Positions 11,153-48,984 of a stretch of DNA of 50,797 nucleotides are shown piece by piece (within the stretch, counting starts at the first letter, position 1; each line of letters starts with the position of its first letter). A model generated the notes under the pieces. It searched no databases. It saw only the letters and a list, made by a program, of their open reading frames with translations, and was not told the origin of the DNA. The stretch comes from a virus, in IMG/VR virus record IMGVR_UViG_3300032053_000118, positions 1 through 50,797 of that record, one strand, 5' to 3'. Both the position numbers and the translations under genes were made by a program.

Positions 11153-11722
11153 ATGGTTATTTATAAAATCACCAATAAGATCAATGGTAAGATATACATA
11201 GGTCAAACTACAACGTCTATTAAGGATAGATGGAAGTCTCATTGCAAACGTAAAGATAGGCCCGGAATAAGTCATGCGATTCAAAAGTATGGAAAAGAAA
11301 ACTTCACAATCGAGGAAATTGACGGTGCTAATAGTTTATCAGAGCTTAATTACCTAGAAGAACATTATATCTATACGTACAATAGTTTGGCTCCAAATGG
11401 GTACAACTTGACATCTGGTGGTAAAAATGCAAAACATTCTGATGAAACAAAAAAGAAGATGTCAGAAAGCGCAAAAGTAAAAATTTTCACAGAAGAGCAC
11501 AGAAGAAATATTGCAAAATCTAGCACAGGAAGAGCTAATAATAAAGGTAAAGTATTCTCAGAAGAATGGAAAAGAAATATGAGCATCTCACACAAAGGAC
11601 TAAAAAGAAGTGATGAGACTAAAAAGAAAATGATACAAGCTCGATTGGGCTTTAAACACACAGAAGAAACTAAACGAAAGATAAGTGCTACTAAATTAGA
11701 GAAAAAATTTAATAAAATTTAA
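11153..11722 (+). CDS. GIY-YIG homing endonuclease with NUMOD3 repeats
   Basis: 189 residues. The N-terminal catalytic domain carries the GIY-like MVIYKITNKINGKIYIGQT, with the catalytic Arg expected in SIKDRWKSH and the later Glu and Asn in the LEEHYIYTYNS region. From residue ~95 there are five NUMOD3-type DNA-binding repeats with the pattern (S/T)-(D/E)-E-x-(K/R)-(K/R) (HSDETKKKMSES, FTEEHRRNIAKS, FSEEWKRNMS, RSDETKKKM, HTEETKRKIS). This is a free-standing homing endonuclease inserted between tail and internal-virion genes; it likely cuts a homologous intergenic site in related phages. Confidence 0.9.
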   Translation: MVIYKITNKINGKIYIGQTTTSIKDRWKSHCKRKDRPGISHAIQKYGKENFTIEEIDGANSLSELNYLEEHYIYTYNSLAPNGYNLTSGGKNAKHSDETKKKMSESAKVKIFTEEHRRNIAKSSTGRANNKGKVFSEEWKRNMSISHKGLKRSDETKKKMIQARLGFKHTEETKRKISATKLEKKFNKI

Positions 11723-27657: not shown

Positions 27658-27913
27658 TCTTTTTATCCTCTCTTTTCTTATCTTCCTTTTTTCTATCTTT
27701 TTCCCTCTTATTTAGAAGCTCCTCGATCAAGTTTGTCTGTCCTCTCTCCATCAACTCTCTGGGACGAGCATGTTTAAGACTAGCATTCTCTTTTTCGTAC
27801 CATGACAAGCACTTAGCACGAGGCCATCCGAGTTTATCCATTGCAAGGGTGATGATCTGTTCCATTGTGAGATTGCCGTTGTTGTGGGGATTACGGCATT
27901 TGCGTTTAGTCAT
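27641..27913 (-). CDS. Small charged protein with antitoxin-like helical motif
   Basis: 90 residues. The centre, LGWPRAKCLSWYEKENASL then ARPRELMERGQTNLIEELL, is reminiscent of the MbcA/ParS/Xre C-terminal domain (W...N..L....P.EL...G....I..LL). The C terminus is a Lys/Asp/Glu-rich tail (KREKDRKKEDKKREDKK). Resemblance is weak, and no toxin gene is adjacent; a terminase-small-subunit-like or host-targeting role cannot be excluded. ATGA overlap with the HNH gene. Confidence 0.5.
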   Translation of the reverse strand: MTKRKCRNPHNNGNLTMEQIITLAMDKLGWPRAKCLSWYEKENASLKHARPRELMERGQTNLIEELLNKREKDRKKEDKKREDKKNENKE

Positions 27914-28446
27914 CGTCTTTTATTCTTTCCTTGTTCCATAGAAGTTGCCCAGTGACAATTTTCTGGCTCATAATTCCCATTCGGATCTTTCCTATCCAAA
28001 GTTAATCCATATGGTCTTTCTCCCATATCATCGAAGAAGTTTTCGAAACTATCCCAACGCTTACATACAGAAATCCCTCGACCTCCGTAGTAATGGTAGT
28101 TGTCTTTGTTTGGATTGTTACAACGCTCTCTCATAGAACACCAAGAAGTATATGTATAGCTTCTATTGGATTGTCCATGTTTAATTGCAAGTTTCCTTTT
28201 ACTTTCTTTAAGGACTTCAAGAAAGCATTCATCACATAGTATTTGGCTATCCTTAGTCTTCTCAAGGAGCTTTGCTTTAGATAGACTGAAAGAGACTTTG
28301 GGAATGATATATCCAGAAGGTTCTCCACATTCACAAACACATAACCATTTATATGTGCTTCCTTTGTTATTTTTCCCGTATCTTTGTCTTTTGTCGAATC
28401 TAAGTACAGTCAATTTTCCGAATTTATGTCCTGTCCAATCTTTCAT
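27910..28446 (-). CDS. HNH homing endonuclease
   Basis: 178 residues. N-terminal DNA-binding part DWTGHKFGKLTVLRF and a zinc site (WLCVCECGEPSG ... ILCDECF), then the typical phage HNH core: SWCSMRERCNNPNKDNYHYY, GGRGISVCKRW, LTLDRKDPNGNYEPENCHWAT. Overlaps the end of the polymerase C-terminal gene by 4 nt. Its position directly behind a split polymerase gene suggests it is the mobile element linked to that split. Confidence 0.88.
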   Translation of the reverse strand: MKDWTGHKFGKLTVLRFDKRQRYGKNNKGSTYKWLCVCECGEPSGYIIPKVSFSLSKAKLLEKTKDSQILCDECFLEVLKESKRKLAIKHGQSNRSYTYTSWCSMRERCNNPNKDNYHYYGGRGISVCKRWDSFENFFDDMGERPYGLTLDRKDPNGNYEPENCHWATSMEQGKNKRR

Positions 28447-29123
28447 TTTAATTCTTCCAGAAGTTTCTGATTCTTTTTTAATCCATAATTAAGAAACAGA
28501 TCTTCAACAACAAGAACATATTTAAAGATCTGGGCGGTATCGTATAATTTTTCTAGCATCTTTTTCATGTGAAAATCACCATCAAATCTTTCTACTAAAC
28601 ATAATGATTCGTCTGATTTAAAGAAAACTCTGATTTTATCACCTTCGACATATTCTGTTCCTTGTATAGCGTCTTTTATCTTTTGTTCATTAGTTCTCTT
28701 TGGGTTCATTACGCTCGGTGTGATGGTCTTTTTACTTGACCATCTGGTAACGTCCTTGATATTTAAAATTTCTTTAACATATTCATGGTATACATCGACG
28801 AATCTATTGGTTTCGTCTAGAATCTCTTTAATGATTCTTTTAATGAATTCAGCTAGTGCAATTTCTTTCATTGGAGCTTTAATGCTATTACCCTTATATG
28901 TAATAGACCCGTCATATTTTTCTAAGACATAATTCTTAGCAGCCAACGTAATAACGGTCTTGTAGTATCCGTCATCTTCCCATATCATCATTTCTGGAGA
29001 AATTTCATTGATCTCTTTTAATAATTTATCCAATTCTTCTTTATTAAAAGGTTCCATTGTTTGTTTACAGAAAGAAATACTGTCTGTATCAGTTGGTCCG
29101 ATTATAAAATTATACTGATTCAT
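28443..29123 (-). CDS. DNA polymerase family B, C-terminal part (split gene)
   Basis: 226 residues. It begins a few residues before polymerase motif C (FIIGPTDTDSISF, catalytic D12 and D14), followed by the KxY-type motif (AAKNYVLEKY, K63) and the thumb. These complete the N-terminal part encoded by the preceding gene. ATG is preceded by GGAG at 9 nt within that gene; the two genes overlap by 14 nt in different frames. The two products must associate to form the palm active site. No sequence between motifs B and C appears lost. Confidence 0.88.
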   Translation of the reverse strand: MNQYNFIIGPTDTDSISFCKQTMEPFNKEELDKLLKEINEISPEMMIWEDDGYYKTVITLAAKNYVLEKYDGSITYKGNSIKAPMKEIALAEFIKRIIKEILDETNRFVDVYHEYVKEILNIKDVTRWSSKKTITPSVMNPKRTNEQKIKDAIQGTEYVEGDKIRVFFKSDESLCLVERFDGDFHMKKMLEKLYDTAQIFKYVLVVEDLFLNYGLKKNQKLLEELK

Positions 29124-30666
29124 CTTCTGTTTCTCCTTTTGTTATAGACTTAAACAAATCCATCCAATAATCTTTTCCTCTTCCGCTAGACCATTTCAAA
29201 GCAAGATCAATAACATTTCTTGTTTCTAATGTAATTTTTGCAGCAACTTCAGGAGAATTAAAGTTGAGACCGTTAGTCGAGCAAGCACCATACGCTGAGT
29301 TGATAAAAATCTTACCAGATGCGTCAAGATCTTCCCATTTTTTATCGCCAGTTTGTTTATTCATCTTTTTGTAATGAAATCTTTGTTCTGTGAAATATTT
29401 AACTAGTTTATAAAAATTTCCTTCTGGATCTTTAGATTTATCAAATAGTTTAAAACGCAATACCTGTGATGGATATGCGGACTTTAAATCAATTTTTACT
29501 AGATTACGGTAGACCCCCGGAATTGCAAAACTAATACCGCCTTCTAGTTTTTCTAGTTGATCTGCTTTAGGGATACTATGTCCTTCTTGTAAATAACTTC
29601 TCACTAGAATACCATTAATAAGAGCACCTGTTGCTGAAATATGAAGATGTTGAAAAGATCTTGTTGTCGATTGTGATTGATAGAAGTAAGCAGGACACAT
29701 TAGATCAAAAAGAGCAAGAGCATCATCAGCATCATCTATACAATACTCTTTAATCTTTTTCATTTCTTCTGGGTCTTTGTATTTATATCTAATTTGTGAG
29801 GCATCATAAAAAGTCCGGCCTTCTTTTTCGAGTCCTTCAGTTTTAATAATAGACTTTAGTCCATAACTATCGTATTTCTTTTTAACAGCATCATAACGAT
29901 AACTCAAAAACATAGTATCTATTACTTCTCGTCCATAACATTTTACATTAGTAAACTCCATATCACGGCTACCGTCGATACGAAAACTGGATGTGTATTC
30001 ATGTGGAGTTAGTGCTGAACCATCTCTACCGATATTCAAAGTAATTCCACAAGAATCAGCTCGACCTAATAGATATCTAATATCAAATCCAAAAATATTA
30101 TGACCAGTTAATATACTAGGATCTTTGTCACAAATCCATTGACACCAATCCAAAAGCATATCGGCTTCTGTTTCATATTCGTCATAGCTAAATAGCTTTG
30201 TTTCTTTTCCTTTTAACGAACGAAAAGTATTAGAGATTAATACAATTTTTGCATTCTCGTTTGACGGATCTAAGCCAGTTGTTTCTAAGTCAAAAGAAAG
30301 AACACTAACGTCTTTTGGATTCAATCCTTGATAATAACATATTCCGTCTTTAGTCATTAGTGCTTCTTGTTCTGACCAAATAGTATAAATATCGTCACTC
30401 TTTTTCCAAGCACCACGACACTTTGACCAAGTTGCTCTATCCTTGAATTGTGTGCCCCAGTTATAATGAAGATCACCTTTAAGCTTCGCGAACTTTCCAT
30501 TGAGATTTTTATTTGAGAGAATCCAGAATCTATTAGAAACAAATACAGAACTTATACCACCATCTTTATCTTGTACAAAGACTTCTGCTGTATCGTCGGC
30601 TACTTCAAGACCTACAACACCTTTTACCCCTGCTTTACCAAATACAAGCTTTTCTGTATTATCCAT
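29110..30666 (-). CDS. DNA polymerase family B, N-terminal part with 3'-5' exonuclease
   Basis: 518 residues. Exonuclease motifs: S-F-D126-L-E128-T, GHNIFGFD195, and Y308-C-I-D with a further Asp at 315. Polymerase motif A is KIDLKSAYPS (D393) and motif B GKIFINSAYGA (K452, N456, Y459-G460). The ORF stops after a further ~58 residues, before motif C, which is on the next gene. Replicative enzyme of the phage. A protein-primed TPR insertion is not obvious. Preceded by AGGAGAGGC and a promoter candidate. Confidence 0.9.
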   Translation of the reverse strand: MDNTEKLVFGKAGVKGVVGLEVADDTAEVFVQDKDGGISSVFVSNRFWILSNKNLNGKFAKLKGDLHYNWGTQFKDRATWSKCRGAWKKSDDIYTIWSEQEALMTKDGICYYQGLNPKDVSVLSFDLETTGLDPSNENAKIVLISNTFRSLKGKETKLFSYDEYETEADMLLDWCQWICDKDPSILTGHNIFGFDIRYLLGRADSCGITLNIGRDGSALTPHEYTSSFRIDGSRDMEFTNVKCYGREVIDTMFLSYRYDAVKKKYDSYGLKSIIKTEGLEKEGRTFYDASQIRYKYKDPEEMKKIKEYCIDDADDALALFDLMCPAYFYQSQSTTRSFQHLHISATGALINGILVRSYLQEGHSIPKADQLEKLEGGISFAIPGVYRNLVKIDLKSAYPSQVLRFKLFDKSKDPEGNFYKLVKYFTEQRFHYKKMNKQTGDKKWEDLDASGKIFINSAYGACSTNGLNFNSPEVAAKITLETRNVIDLALKWSSGRGKDYWMDLFKSITKGETEDESV

Positions 30667-44182: not shown

Positions 44183-44557
44183 TTAAAGTCCAAGTCTTTC
44201 ATTGATGCGTTCTCTATTAAGTCTCATTGCTTCTTCTGTTGGAACATAGTCATTGTAGAATGCCTTGTTTTCTGGAATAAAGATACTACTATCTTTGTAT
44301 GTAGGTTTGTATCCTCTAGATAGCATTTCGTTGACTAGATCTTCAAAACGACGTTGTAAGAATAGCATCTTGTCGTAGAAGAACTTTACATGCCCAGTTC
44401 CTAATACATAGGTACTAGGAATTTCTGACATACTAAAAAGCTTTGTACGGGATAGGGATTGTCGCAAGTTATTTGGAAGTCTTGTGATCTCTCTATACTC
44501 AGCTACTAAATGTTTGGTCGTAAGTTCTGCGGTAGGGACTACGTTAATTCTTGTGAT
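44183..44557 (-). CDS. denV: Pyrimidine-dimer DNA glycosylase (T4 endonuclease V type), apparent AUC start
   Basis: 124 residues if initiated at ATC 44557. With that start the N terminus is M-T-R-I-N, as in T4 DenV, where Thr2 is the catalytic nucleophile. E11, H16, AEYRE with E23, and R26 all fall at T4 positions, then PSTYVLGTGHVKFFYDKMLF and the C-terminal DYVPTEEAMRLNRERI match the family. AAGGAG is 7 nt before ATC. The first in-frame ATG is after residue 40 and would remove the active site. T4 DenV has 138 residues, so the last turn is shorter. It repairs UV damage in phage DNA. Its start overlaps the end of the HNH gene by 14 nt. Confidence 0.85.
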   Translation of the reverse strand: MTRINVVPTAELTTKHLVAEYREITRLPNNLRQSLSRTKLFSMSEIPSTYVLGTGHVKFFYDKMLFLQRRFEDLVNEMLSRGYKPTYKDSSIFIPENKAFYNDYVPTEEAMRLNRERINERLGL

Positions 44558-45093
44558 ACCAAGGCTCCTTGTTATAAAGTTCTACATATTTATCATAATA
44601 TGCATTATGTGCTTCGTCAACTGTATTATATACACCCAATGGAATAATTTTCCCTTGATAACGAAGTTGTGAATAATATTTTCCCGTGATTTTATCTAAA
44701 TATGCGCCTCTTTTTTTATTTATAAGAACCCGGTATTTATGTAATTCATTAAAAGAATCAGTACAATATTCTAAATTTTCTAATTTATTATTTGATTTGT
44801 CGCCATCTTTATGATTAACAGACAAATCACTTATTCCAATAAAAGCTTCCATTACAATTCTATGTAATAAAAGTTGGTGGTGACGCTTTTTTTTCATTTT
44901 TATATAAACTTAATTGTCTATAATTATTTGCAATAACTCTAGGTTTTATATACTTACCTTTATAAAATCTTTGTCCTGTTTTTGTTTTAACAATTCTATC
45001 TAAACTTTTTACATTACCAAAATTAGAAACAATATATAAACCTTCAAAACCAACAACAGATTTCCATATTTCTTTTTTATTTTGTTTTTCCAT
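44544..45093 (-). pseudogene. HNH homing endonuclease (NUMOD4-HNH), frameshifted at A8
   Basis: Two overlapping frames make one homing endonuclease. 44860-45093 encodes the NUMOD4 part, EIWKSVVGFEGLYIVSNFG and VKSLDRIV; 44544-44897 encodes the HNH part, HRIVMEAFIG, LSVNHKDGDKSNNKLENLEY, and a C-terminal AP2/NUMOD1-like domain GKYYSQLRYQGKIIPLGVY. The frames join at a run of eight A (44884-44891); seven A would restore a continuous protein (YKNEKKRHHQ). Either a broken gene, transcriptional slippage, or a homopolymer error. It sits between nrdJ and denV. Confidence 0.8.
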
Positions 45094-45096
45094 AAT

Positions 45097-46956
45097 TTAA
45101 ATACTTGTTAATTCGCACACGCCTCCGCTGCAAGCTACAGTTTCGGTCTTATTAGTATTGTCCTCTGTTTCAACTATCTTTGTCAAGTCAATTTCTTTAA
45201 CAAGTACCATATACTTTTCATATGTTTCTTTTGTACACTCTTCGAATGGAGCTTGTTGGTAACTTCCACCATCATAAGGAAGAAGTGAGATACCAGAATA
45301 CAGGTGACGGTTTTCCCACATGCTTTCTCTTACTTGCTCCCATTCATTATCCTTAACTGAAATAGTTGCAGATACATTGTTCTTATTGTCGCCACTTCTA
45401 TGACCAACGGATACCCAATTGGTATTGTAATCATATACACGATTCAATAGATCAAGTGCTGTTTCCTTTTCTCTGGTAATAGCATTGTCTGGAGACTTTT
45501 GTGGGATAGTTACTACAGATCCACTTGCTGAAAACAAATCATTCTCAACTAGATCTGGAATAACATTGCGAAGATAACTATCTAGACTATCGTTCTTGTT
45601 GATACGGAAACGACGTAGGTAGTACTCGCTGTGTCTTGCGTGAATTCCTGATGCAGAGCCAAGTACACACGAAGAAGTGCCTTCTGGTTTCAATGTAGTA
45701 ACACGAGCTGCTGGATTAATACCAATCTTTTTAGCGTAACGCTCATTCATTTCTAGTGCAAGGTTGGCACCTTCTTGGAGCCACTCGTTTGTAATGAGTC
45801 CGTGAGCATCTGCAATACCTGTAAACGACGTACCAATAAGAGCATCAAGTTCTGTTGTCTCTTTCCAAATAGGACGAAGATAAGGAAAGTCTGTATATGC
45901 TGCTTGTAAAGTTCCTAGTAATGTTGCAGAATGAACTCGCTTCAAGAACTCTGCTTTGGTCTTGATACCTGTTTGATTAATAGTAGTGAGGTTACAAAAT
46001 TGATTAGGTCTTAGGCTAATTTCGTGACAAGGATTAAACCCCCAATCTGTATTATTAGTCCAACTAATTCCCGGCTCTCCCGCTCCACTCTCTTGTAGAA
46101 TCTTAAAAATATAGTCAAACTCTTCCTTTGTAACTTCTGATCTAGGAAGAATTGCTGAGTTATTTGCTCTAGCTCGTTGTGGATTCTTTGTCCACCAATC
46201 CCCAGACTTTGATTTTAACATCTCTGTATCGTCTCTATCAAACAGAGAAATAGTTGCTGCGCGACGAATACCACCAGACAACACACAATCAGAGATAATA
46301 CAAATAATGTCGTGAACTTCAATCGGTGACAAGCGTCTACCAATAGCAAGCTTAAGTCTACGTTCAACTTCAGCAAGCATTACTCGTAGTGGTTCCGGGC
46401 CGGGAGCCTTTGCACCTGTGGTAACAAGGTAAGATCCTTTTGCTCTGATATTAGAAAGATCAAATACAGGACGAATCCTTCCAAGGAAGTAAGCGTCAAT
46501 CAATTGATCTAAAGCTTGCGCCCAACCAATGATACTATCGTGGGCAACGTAAGTGCCTTCTTCTCTTGGGGATTGTACTTTACCTAATTGATTAACATGA
46601 GATTTTTGTACAGAAAATCCAACGCCTACTCCAGATAGAAGAAGAAACAAGGTTTCTCCAAAACAACGAATATCATTGATAGGAAGATACGAACAATTGT
46701 ATTGTCTAATATTGTTTTTTAGTACGGCGTCTCCGGCAAACTGTAGGCCGCGCATCGATGGCATGACTTTAAGTGCATGAACATTGTCAAAAGCTTTGAT
46801 GATGTCTTGAGATAGTTTTGGAAACTTTTCAAGATGCATAACCATATCACGGTTAATAGTTTCTTCTAAAGTTTCACGACGAGCCAATGGTTGTAAGTAC
46901 TTAGCATATGTACGAAAAGATACTAGATCTGATAGAAGTTTGTTACTTTGATCCAT
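45097..46956 (-). CDS. nrdJ: Ribonucleotide reductase class II, adenosylcobalamin-dependent, monomeric type
   Basis: 619 residues from ATG 46956, where AAGGAGA lies 6-7 nt upstream; the frame is open further, but that region is the structured leader. Active-site residues match the Lactobacillus leichmannii enzyme in spacing: N308-x-C310-x-E312 and C321 (N406, C408, E410, C419 there), C88 in RQYNCSY as partner, and a C-terminal shuttle pair CSGGVC with the same five-residue spacing. Reduces ribonucleotides (triphosphates in the monomeric class) for phage DNA synthesis and needs host cobalamin. About 120 residues shorter than the bacterial enzyme. Thioredoxin at 123-482 may donate electrons. 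Confidence 0.93.
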   Translation of the reverse strand: MDQSNKLLSDLVSFRTYAKYLQPLARRETLEETINRDMVMHLEKFPKLSQDIIKAFDNVHALKVMPSMRGLQFAGDAVLKNNIRQYNCSYLPINDIRCFGETLFLLLSGVGVGFSVQKSHVNQLGKVQSPREEGTYVAHDSIIGWAQALDQLIDAYFLGRIRPVFDLSNIRAKGSYLVTTGAKAPGPEPLRVMLAEVERRLKLAIGRRLSPIEVHDIICIISDCVLSGGIRRAATISLFDRDDTEMLKSKSGDWWTKNPQRARANNSAILPRSEVTKEEFDYIFKILQESGAGEPGISWTNNTDWGFNPCHEISLRPNQFCNLTTINQTGIKTKAEFLKRVHSATLLGTLQAAYTDFPYLRPIWKETTELDALIGTSFTGIADAHGLITNEWLQEGANLALEMNERYAKKIGINPAARVTTLKPEGTSSCVLGSASGIHARHSEYYLRRFRINKNDSLDSYLRNVIPDLVENDLFSASGSVVTIPQKSPDNAITREKETALDLLNRVYDYNTNWVSVGHRSGDNKNNVSATISVKDNEWEQVRESMWENRHLYSGISLLPYDGGSYQQAPFEECTKETYEKYMVLVKEIDLTKIVETEDNTNKTETVACSGGVCELTSI

Positions 46957-47075
46957 GTTGTTTCTCCTTGTTGTAAAAGTGATGACTTTTCTAGGTACTC
47001 GGCCCGTCATCATACCGGAATAGTTGCTTAACCAATCTCACCACTGCAACAGGTGACTTCGAGGATTTTCATCCC
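46957..47075 (-). promoter_or_regulatory. Structured 5' leader of nrdJ, riboswitch candidate
   Basis: About 119 nt from predicted start to ATG. Elements in order: GGAT-GAAA-ATCC (47063-47074); hairpin TCACC/GGTGA (47052-47056 with 47038-47042) whose loop GTTGC (47046-47050) can pair with GCAAC (47023-47027), a pseudoknot; GGTAT/GTACC (47012-47016 with 46994-46998). TGATGAC (47006-47012) is a perfect complement of GTCATCA (46980-46986), which can instead form the hairpin AAAAGT-CATC-ACTTTT (46975-46990) just before AAGGAGA. Exclusive pairings suggest ligand-controlled translation. Confidence 0.6.
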
Positions 47076-47855: not shown

Positions 47856-48007
47856 TTTATATCCTTTGTTGCATGATATAAAGCATTGTATATGATCTCA
47901 ATGATTCTACTATCGTAAGTATCAGATGCGTATTGTTCTAGCTTATGTTTAAGTTCTTCCATTCCGTAACTTCTACCGTTCTCAAAGTCTTCGTCTTGTG
48001 GTCTCAT
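47852..48007 (-). CDS. Small hypothetical protein (51 residues)
   Basis: Opens at ATG 48007, overlapping the repeat-protein stop by one base (TAATG), and ends with an ATGA junction into the next gene. Reads MRPQDEDFENGRSYGMEELK then a helix with EIIYNALYHATKDIK. Both junctions and the GGGGA ribosome site make it a convincing gene. Confidence 0.65.
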   Translation of the reverse strand: MRPQDEDFENGRSYGMEELKHKLEQYASDTYDSRIIEIIYNALYHATKDIK

Positions 48008-48984
48008 TAGATTATCCCCAATTCTTTTGCTTTATCTTCGTCTAAAAACTTTTCAACACCATTTACAATTACTTTAATCTGATTTTTCAATAAAGATATT
48101 CCATTTGAAATTTTCATAAATACTTCGTTATCAAAATTAGGTAAAGATTTAATAAACTCTTTATCAGAATCTGTTAGACTTCTCCAATCCATTCTATCAG
48201 TTTTTCTTAGAAATCCTTCTGTAATTTTTGAAGATGGATTATCTTTCTTTTCTTGTTCTGTCATATTTGATAAAGAAACCCAAGTAAGAATAGGTTTAAC
48301 ATTTAAATTTCTCAATTTACTTTCAAGTTCTTTTGTATATTTCATTGTTGATGGTTTATTAAAGAAGTACAAAGGAATTTCTGTATTGAAGTAGCCGGAG
48401 TTCCCGTCGCCGGAGTTCCAGTCGCCGGAGTTCCTGTTGCCGGAGTTCCCGTAGCCGGAGTTCCCGTAGCCGGAGTTCCTGTTGCCGGAGTTCCAGTTGC
48501 CGGAGTTCCTGTTGCCGGAGTTCCCGTAGCCGGAGTTCCCGTAGCCGGAGTTCCCGTAGCCGGAGTTCCTGTTGCCGGAGTTCCAGTCGCCGGAGTTCCT
48601 GTTGCCGGAGTTCCTGTCGCCGGAGTTCCAGTCGCCGGAGTTCCTGTTGCCGGAGTTCCCGTCGCCGGAGTTCCCGTAGCCGGAGTTATTATTTTTAAGC
48701 ACAACATCCAAAATTTCTTTTGAACTTAATTCTCTAATAATTTTAATACGAGAAGTAGCAGATTTATCACTTTCTGTTTCAATTGAACCAATAGCTTCTA
48801 CTTCACAAATTCTAGTAGAACTTTCTTTTGTATAATAGTTATATACATCTAAAAGATTAGCACAGAAATGGTATCCATTGTTACAAATCTTTAATTTTCC
48901 TATGATAAAATATTCTCTACCAACTTCAAACTGAAGTCCTCTACATTTTAGATCTTTATCAAACGCTTTATATCCTCTTATCAT
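48007..48984 (-). CDS. Pentapeptide (NSGxx) repeat protein, DUF7666-type N terminus
   Basis: 325 residues. Residues 1-90 (GYKAFDKDLKCRGLQFEVG; KICNNGYHFCANLLDVYNYY; ICEVEAIGSIETESDKSA) match the N-terminal domain that precedes such repeats in other phages and mobile elements. Residues ~100-199 are 20 tandem NSG-[YDN]-[GWRF] units, expected to form a compact beta-helix or rod. The C-terminal ~125 residues are alpha/beta with MKYTKELESKLRNLN. Function unknown; DNA mimicry or protein binding have been proposed for other pentapeptide proteins. Promoter candidate at 49047-49075. Confidence 0.8.
   Translation of the reverse strand: MIRGYKAFDKDLKCRGLQFEVGREYFIIGKLKICNNGYHFCANLLDVYNYYTKESSTRICEVEAIGSIETESDKSATSRIKIIRELSSKEILDVVLKNNNSGYGNSGDGNSGNRNSGDWNSGDRNSGNRNSGDWNSGNRNSGYGNSGYGNSGYGNSGNRNSGNWNSGNRNSGYGNSGYGNSGNRNSGDWNSGDGNSGYFNTEIPLYFFNKPSTMKYTKELESKLRNLNVKPILTWVSLSNMTEQEKKDNPSSKITEGFLRKTDRMDWRSLTDSDKEFIKSLPNFDNEVFMKISNGISLLKNQIKVIVNGVEKFLDEDKAKELGII
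48388..48687 (-). repeat. 20 x 15-bp in-frame tandem repeat
   Basis: Each unit reads AAC TCC GGC nAC nGG on the coding strand. Only the two n positions vary (T/G/A and G/T/A); all other 13 bases are identical in nearly every unit, apart from the last, NSGYF. C never occurs at the variable positions. GC-rich against the AT-rich surroundings. Confidence 0.95.

Follow-up and report, generated by a model that had tools for sequence, protein, structure and literature searches.

The window, which is the whole 50,797-nt stretch of viral DNA analyzed here, carries a T4-type denV gene that is very likely a working gene started at AUC; less certainly, its original AUG was lost to an upstream insertion. 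Our best reading of the sequence is that this AUC was created or tolerated when DNA entered directly upstream, and that it is a genuine start, probably of weak output. The layout of the locus is given in Table 1.

Table 1. Features of the denV locus, in the order in which they are read on the minus strand of the window
Feature	Position	Strand	Remarks
B12-dependent-type ribonucleotide reductase	45097..47013	-	precedes the endonuclease gene
NUMOD4 half of the homing-endonuclease gene	44860..45093	-	ATG 3 nt past the reductase stop
A8 tract	44887..44894	-	frame change of the NUMOD4-HNH endonuclease gene
HNH_3 half of the same gene, upstream of denV	44544..44897	-	stop 44546-44544 within denV codons 4-5
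Shine-Dalgarno (SD) AAGGAG	44565..44570	-	7-nt spacer to ATC; inside the end of the HNH frame
denV, T4-type pyrimidine-dimer DNA glycosylase/AP lyase, 124 aa from AUC	44183..44557	-	homology, profiles
ATC (AUC) start codon	44555..44557	-	codon 2 is ACA (Thr2, catalytic N-terminus)
TTG, codon 31	44465..44467	-	first in-frame NTG of denV

Identity of denV and its start codon

A sequence-only reading of this DNA had claimed that the frame ahead of the first ATG continues with DenV homology, and our searches agree. The frame (44581..44183, minus strand) runs uninterrupted from a TAG at 44584-44582 to a TAA at 44185-44183, and the protein read from the ATC begins ITRINVVPTAELTTKHLVAEYREITRLPNN. It matches Pfam PF03013 (Pyr_excise; E=2.3e-14, 53.9 bits against a cut-off of 23) and phrog_1183 (E=3.1e-43), and T4 endonuclease V (2end) aligns with it without a gap from residue 1 over the N-terminal ~80 residues (E=1.5e-21). 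The same reading had the start followed by T-R-I-N as in T4, with H16, R22, E23, and R26 in ungapped register; in the 2end alignment these four residues and T2 are all identical. The AAGGAG that it placed 7 nt before the ATC was found at 44570-44565, and the ATC at 44557-44555 is the sole SD-placed codon for denV. Reading in frame from the upstream stop, one meets no ATG, GTG, or TTG ahead of codon 31. A start at the TTG of codon 31 would already cost the protein T2, H16, R22, E23, and R26, and the first in-frame ATG is codon 43, which confirms that starting at the internal ATG would drop the active site. Within the window, denV is the only recognizable gene whose sole SD-positioned start is non-NTG, and RNA folding around this start showed nothing unusual.

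The codons before the TTG differ from those of four relatives (L104, L002, L003, and L004) by 12-18 synonymous and 3-6 amino-acid changes, which argues that this stretch is translated as protein and is constrained. Since the amine of the N-terminal threonine carries out DenV catalysis (PMC3285167), a start either upstream or downstream of codon 1 gives no enzyme, and AUC is thus the start by exclusion. Taken together, homology, SD spacing, the missing alternative start, and purifying selection make the AUC start well supported at the sequence level.

Codon 1 in other denV genes

DenV must have Thr2 at its N-terminus, which fixes the position of the start and makes codon 1 readable in other phages; TRIN follows it in nearly all denV relatives. 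Among the 80 nearest viral loci, codon 1 is readable in 79 (L077 was left out, its contig being cut too short to read), with 75 ATG, 2 GTG, 1 TTG, and 1 ATC. Searching for any NTH codon followed by TRIN...HLxAE recovered five contigs, all with ATT or ATC (L109, ATT; L106/L108/L110, with ATT in L106; and L020, again ATC), and a scan with one more residue in the pattern added L234 (ATC), L236 (ATC), and L235 (ATA); every codon 1 recovered in this way is ATH. Scanning the L234/L236 clade yielded 52 distinct genes, of which 45 have ATG, 3 have GTG, and 4 have ATC. The 225 distinct intact denV genes, a non-random sample for which ATH members were deliberately sought, comprise 187 ATG, 15 TTG, 14 GTG, 7 ATC, 1 ATT, and 1 ATA. 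From a rough capture-recapture of two scans (10 of 32 recaptured among 117), some 370 NTG genes would fit the first pattern.

Parsimony on the denV tree requires at least seven switches to ATH. L106 was left off the tree because it is frameshifted; with it there are eight, the window counted in. By this count, no fewer than seven phage lineages besides that of the window phage have each lost the denV AUG on their own. The earlier expectation that a non-AUG start would be rare holds overall, but such starts are less rare in denV than expected, at about eight separate lineages. An SD precedes codon 1 in the window, L109, L106, and L020. The window's close denV relatives have ATG (L104, L002, L003, and L004) or GTG (L175), and AUC is thus not conserved within the window's own denV clade. 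Conservation of ATH among close relatives is restricted to the L244/L254 group, and ATH alleles are otherwise scattered at the tips of the tree, with ATG in near relatives. In a small control within the L234/L244 denV clade, the single-strand-binding-protein-like genes start with ATG in 25 of 25 cases.

The alleles of the window, L020, L109, L234, L236, L254, and L235 each stand on one contig; that of L244 recurs in contigs of three IMG datasets (L244, L245, and L303), and that of L106 likewise in contigs of three datasets. A search with the L020 denV returned L020 only, and a DNA search of phage records with the L109 and L106 flanks found no denV-bearing relative. At L020:5917-6000, between a ribonucleotide reductase gene and the ATC-start denV, there is a terminator-like hairpin with a T-run, close ahead of denV. 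In bacterial genomes, the pattern for non-AUG denV matched only non-denV ORFs (MutS-like by our reading). Shigella phage sb4 (L330 / PQ666542.1) was considered as a cultured example, since it has an ATT-start denV together with a split lysozyme gene. We set this case aside because the record seems unreliable: sb4 and its sister sb2 (L329 / PQ666540.1), which has a premature stop in denV, carry nonsense changes in lysozyme, denV, or the next genes.

The genes with ATH starts can also be compared for constraint. Between L244 and L254, which both start with ATC, there are 11 synonymous and 3 non-synonymous changes (dN 0.010, dS 0.156, dN/dS ~0.06), which suggests that ATC-start denV genes stay functional, and L234 (as L277) gives dN/dS of 0.04-0.18 against its ATG near-twins L276, L274, and L299. 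In L106, the exception, each of the three contigs lacks one base past about codon 21. This frameshifted ATT-start denV is closely followed by a TnpB-like gene (L106:4300-5980).

Homing endonucleases and extra DNA before denV

In the window, a NUMOD4-HNH gene stands directly before denV, and the HNH stop (a TAA) lies inside denV such that the two frames overlap by 14 nt. Both the NUMOD4 and HNH domains are present (PF07463 and PF13392); the reading frame is not intact, being split in two at the A8 tract, for which decay, slippage, or sequencing error are the options. Three further ATH-start denV genes follow a homing-endonuclease gene (HEG): an HNH gene of phrog_953 ends 11 nt before denV in L109, a PD-(D/E)XK/VSR-like endonuclease gene (by motif and weak phrog matches) 10 nt before it in L106, and a NUMOD3-bearing, apparently HNH-type gene 77 nt before it in L236. 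All four HEGs thus end at most 77 nt upstream, and they differ in type. The endonuclease stop, the SD, and the ATH codon all fall within ~25 nt in the window, L109, and L106, a layout fit for direct initiation or reinitiation.

A HEG-like gene ends at most 110 nt upstream at 4 of 9 ATH loci versus 3 of 211 NTG loci (Fisher p=4.4e-5, relatedness ignored). The calls were made with profiles built up from seeds taken from the loci themselves; because some of these seeds had been picked for standing before ATH genes, unknown HEG families would be missed mainly on the NTG side. As an independent check against this seed bias, the 145 genes preceding NTG-start denV that were scanned with Pfam showed HNH families in only ~2 cases, which indicates that HEGs are rare there. 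When HEG presence was tested against ATH in phylogenetic pairs, the result was not significant, as too few pairs were supported. The three NTG-start genes with an upstream HEG (L016, L116, and L255) all have ATG; in L116 and L255 the endonuclease gene is only 17 and 7 nt away, respectively, so ATG need not be lost. Conversely, L020, L234, and L244/L254 have ATH but no HEG.

In the recA-denV clade, the spacers before the ATC genes measure 68, 69, 89, and 855 nt and are unusually long: the 39 NTG genes have a median spacer of 25 nt (Mann-Whitney p=0.002, with relatedness left out of account). The clearest case is L234, which differs from its near-identical ATG relatives (L274, L276, and L299) in that a leader like that of L274 has gained 32 nt immediately ahead of the start and the codon is ATC in place of ATG. 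There are no close relatives of L020 and L235 for a leader comparison; where relatives are comparable, the common factor is extra DNA immediately before codon 2, which is a HEG in four cases.

An empty-site search over 22 reductase-relative loci found none with denV beside the reductase, and among the 17 of these records searched whole, one has denV, elsewhere and with ATG. The reductase searches gave no relative in which the same reductase adjoins denV without the endonuclease, and a search with the gene after the window denV found no relatives. The proposal of the sequence-only reading, that the HNH insertion replaced the original ATG, is favored by the excess of HEGs at ATH loci, but the HEG-flanked ATG loci, the ATH loci that have no HEG, and the lack of an empty-site relative among the loci searched leave it short of proof. 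Comparing codon 1 with and without an upstream HEG supports the insertion idea without proving it for the window phage.

Several other observations concern genes of this kind. The window carries a GIY-YIG/NUMOD-type endonuclease gene among structural genes (11153-11722, plus strand) and an HNH gene (27910-28446) directly following a DNA polymerase (28443-30666, minus strand), which is apparently split into two overlapping frames, with a DTDS motif in the second. In L244 (1274-1828), an HNH/NUMOD homing endonuclease lies between single-strand-binding and recA-like genes. A separate gene of the window (48007-48984, minus strand) encodes a protein with a long NSGD/NSGN/NSGY repeat run.

Proposed mechanism and alternative explanations

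We propose, with less certainty than for the AUC start itself, that DNA inserted in front of codon 2, here a homing endonuclease, would have cut denV off from its own leader and AUG and would have supplied a new SD plus a substitute start codon. Ribosomes could then either bind at the AAGGAG or, having terminated at the overlapping HNH stop, reinitiate; initiator fMet-tRNA would read AUC with a third-position mismatch and at a lower yield than AUG; and the methionine would be removed because residue 2 is Thr, leaving a free N-terminal Thr to do the chemistry. Published reporters lead us to infer limited DenV expression from AUC: AUU and AUA starts with strong SDs yield ~10% of AUG (PMC13009471), a natural AUU start has been verified by mutation (PMC10191623), and an AUC mutant of a Bacillus subtilis lacZ fusion was much weaker (PMC10303841). 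A reduced rate may be tolerable for an enzyme needed in few copies. That the codon is ATH and not ATG may reflect a chance outcome where the insert joins denV, an advantage of making less enzyme, or shielding of the occupied site against the endonuclease. A broader and rather unlikely version is that unrelated HEG families repeatedly insert exactly at the denV start via its conserved active-site codons, replacing AUG by AUC or AUU, and that the changed codon both keeps denV at a low level and makes the occupied site endonuclease-resistant. If true, mobile elements would rewrite the start codons of genes beside which they land.

Low expression might itself have been selected, with AUC as an adaptive attenuator and the HEG link secondary. 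This reading, which accepts the AUC start, is a possible though less favored one: it would account for the ATH loci that have no HEG, and natural AUU and AUA starts do attenuate conserved regulators (PMC13009471), but ATH in denV is scattered at tree tips beside ATG relatives and not clade-wide as in infC, and extra DNA precedes every ATC allele of the recA-denV clade. It is improbable that denV is instead being lost, the insertion having taken the AUG and the ATC being the first visible defect of a gene that is untranslated or barely translated. L106 does combine an ATT start with a one-base denV frameshift in three contigs, and the upstream HNH gene of the window is itself split; however, denV in the window reads through 124 codons uninterrupted and under normal constraint, a properly spaced SD is kept in the window, L109, and L020, and ATC alleles elsewhere have dN/dS of ~0.04-0.2, with the two ATC genes L244 and L254 having diverged mainly synonymously.

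A sequencing or assembly error hiding a true ATG would be very unlikely. The window allele rests on one contig, the nearby A8 frameshift could be error or decay, and the sb4 record illustrates how such calls can mislead; against this, a substitution at exactly the codon-1 base is a priori unlikely, homopolymer indels are another type of error, and ATH starts recur in at least seven other lineages, one of them in contigs of three datasets. HNH genes are frequently carried in introns, and the endonuclease block could in principle be an intron or skipped segment whose removal joins an upstream AUG to codon 2 in the RNA. We give this hardly any weight and reject it, given that Rfam found no group I or II intron structure at the endonuclease-denV junction in the window and seven related loci, codon 2 is preceded by C or T where a group I intron would end in G, and ATC also arises with a mere 32-nt insertion. 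A frameshift fusion of DenV to the HNH protein, suggested by the overlap of their frames, is rejected as well and seems barely conceivable, since it would leave Thr2 internal, without the free amine on which catalysis depends, and since stops and SDs lie between endonuclease and denV in L109 and L106. An AUC start following upstream insertion is thus the explanation that we prefer.

Significance and comparison with known systems

As DenV chemistry fixes the first residue, the start codon of denV can be read off with no gene caller involved. AUC, AUU, and AUA starts appear to arise repeatedly in phages, and callers limited to ATG, GTG, and TTG miss denV or cut its active site off. The near-identical ATG and ATC alleles could serve as natural pairs for how mobile DNA before a gene alters translation.

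T4 DenV shares T2, H16, R22, E23, R26, a near full-length alignment, and PF03013 with the window denV, which differs in beginning at AUC instead of AUG and in sitting behind a homing-endonuclease gene. An ATH start after a strong SD is likewise found in infC, in Staphylococcus aureus cvfC1 and ccpN, and in Yersinia pestis RcsD-Hpt (PMC13009471, PMC10191623), and in RcsD-Hpt the near-cognate start is likewise secondary, there after a frameshift. Unlike these natural AUU and AUA bacterial genes, the window denV is a phage repair gene with a predicted AUC start that is not conserved in its clade, and the ATH starts of denV appear to have recurrent origins tied to inserted DNA. The free-standing seg and mob HEGs of T-even phages, in the portion of text available from PMC2988022, are also intergenic HNH or GIY-YIG genes beside genes of nucleotide and DNA metabolism. 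That portion does not describe a gene without a standard start after the endonuclease, as we see in the window; it does describe mobE-nrdA overlaps that suggest coupling, and these resemble the HNH-denV overlap of the window.
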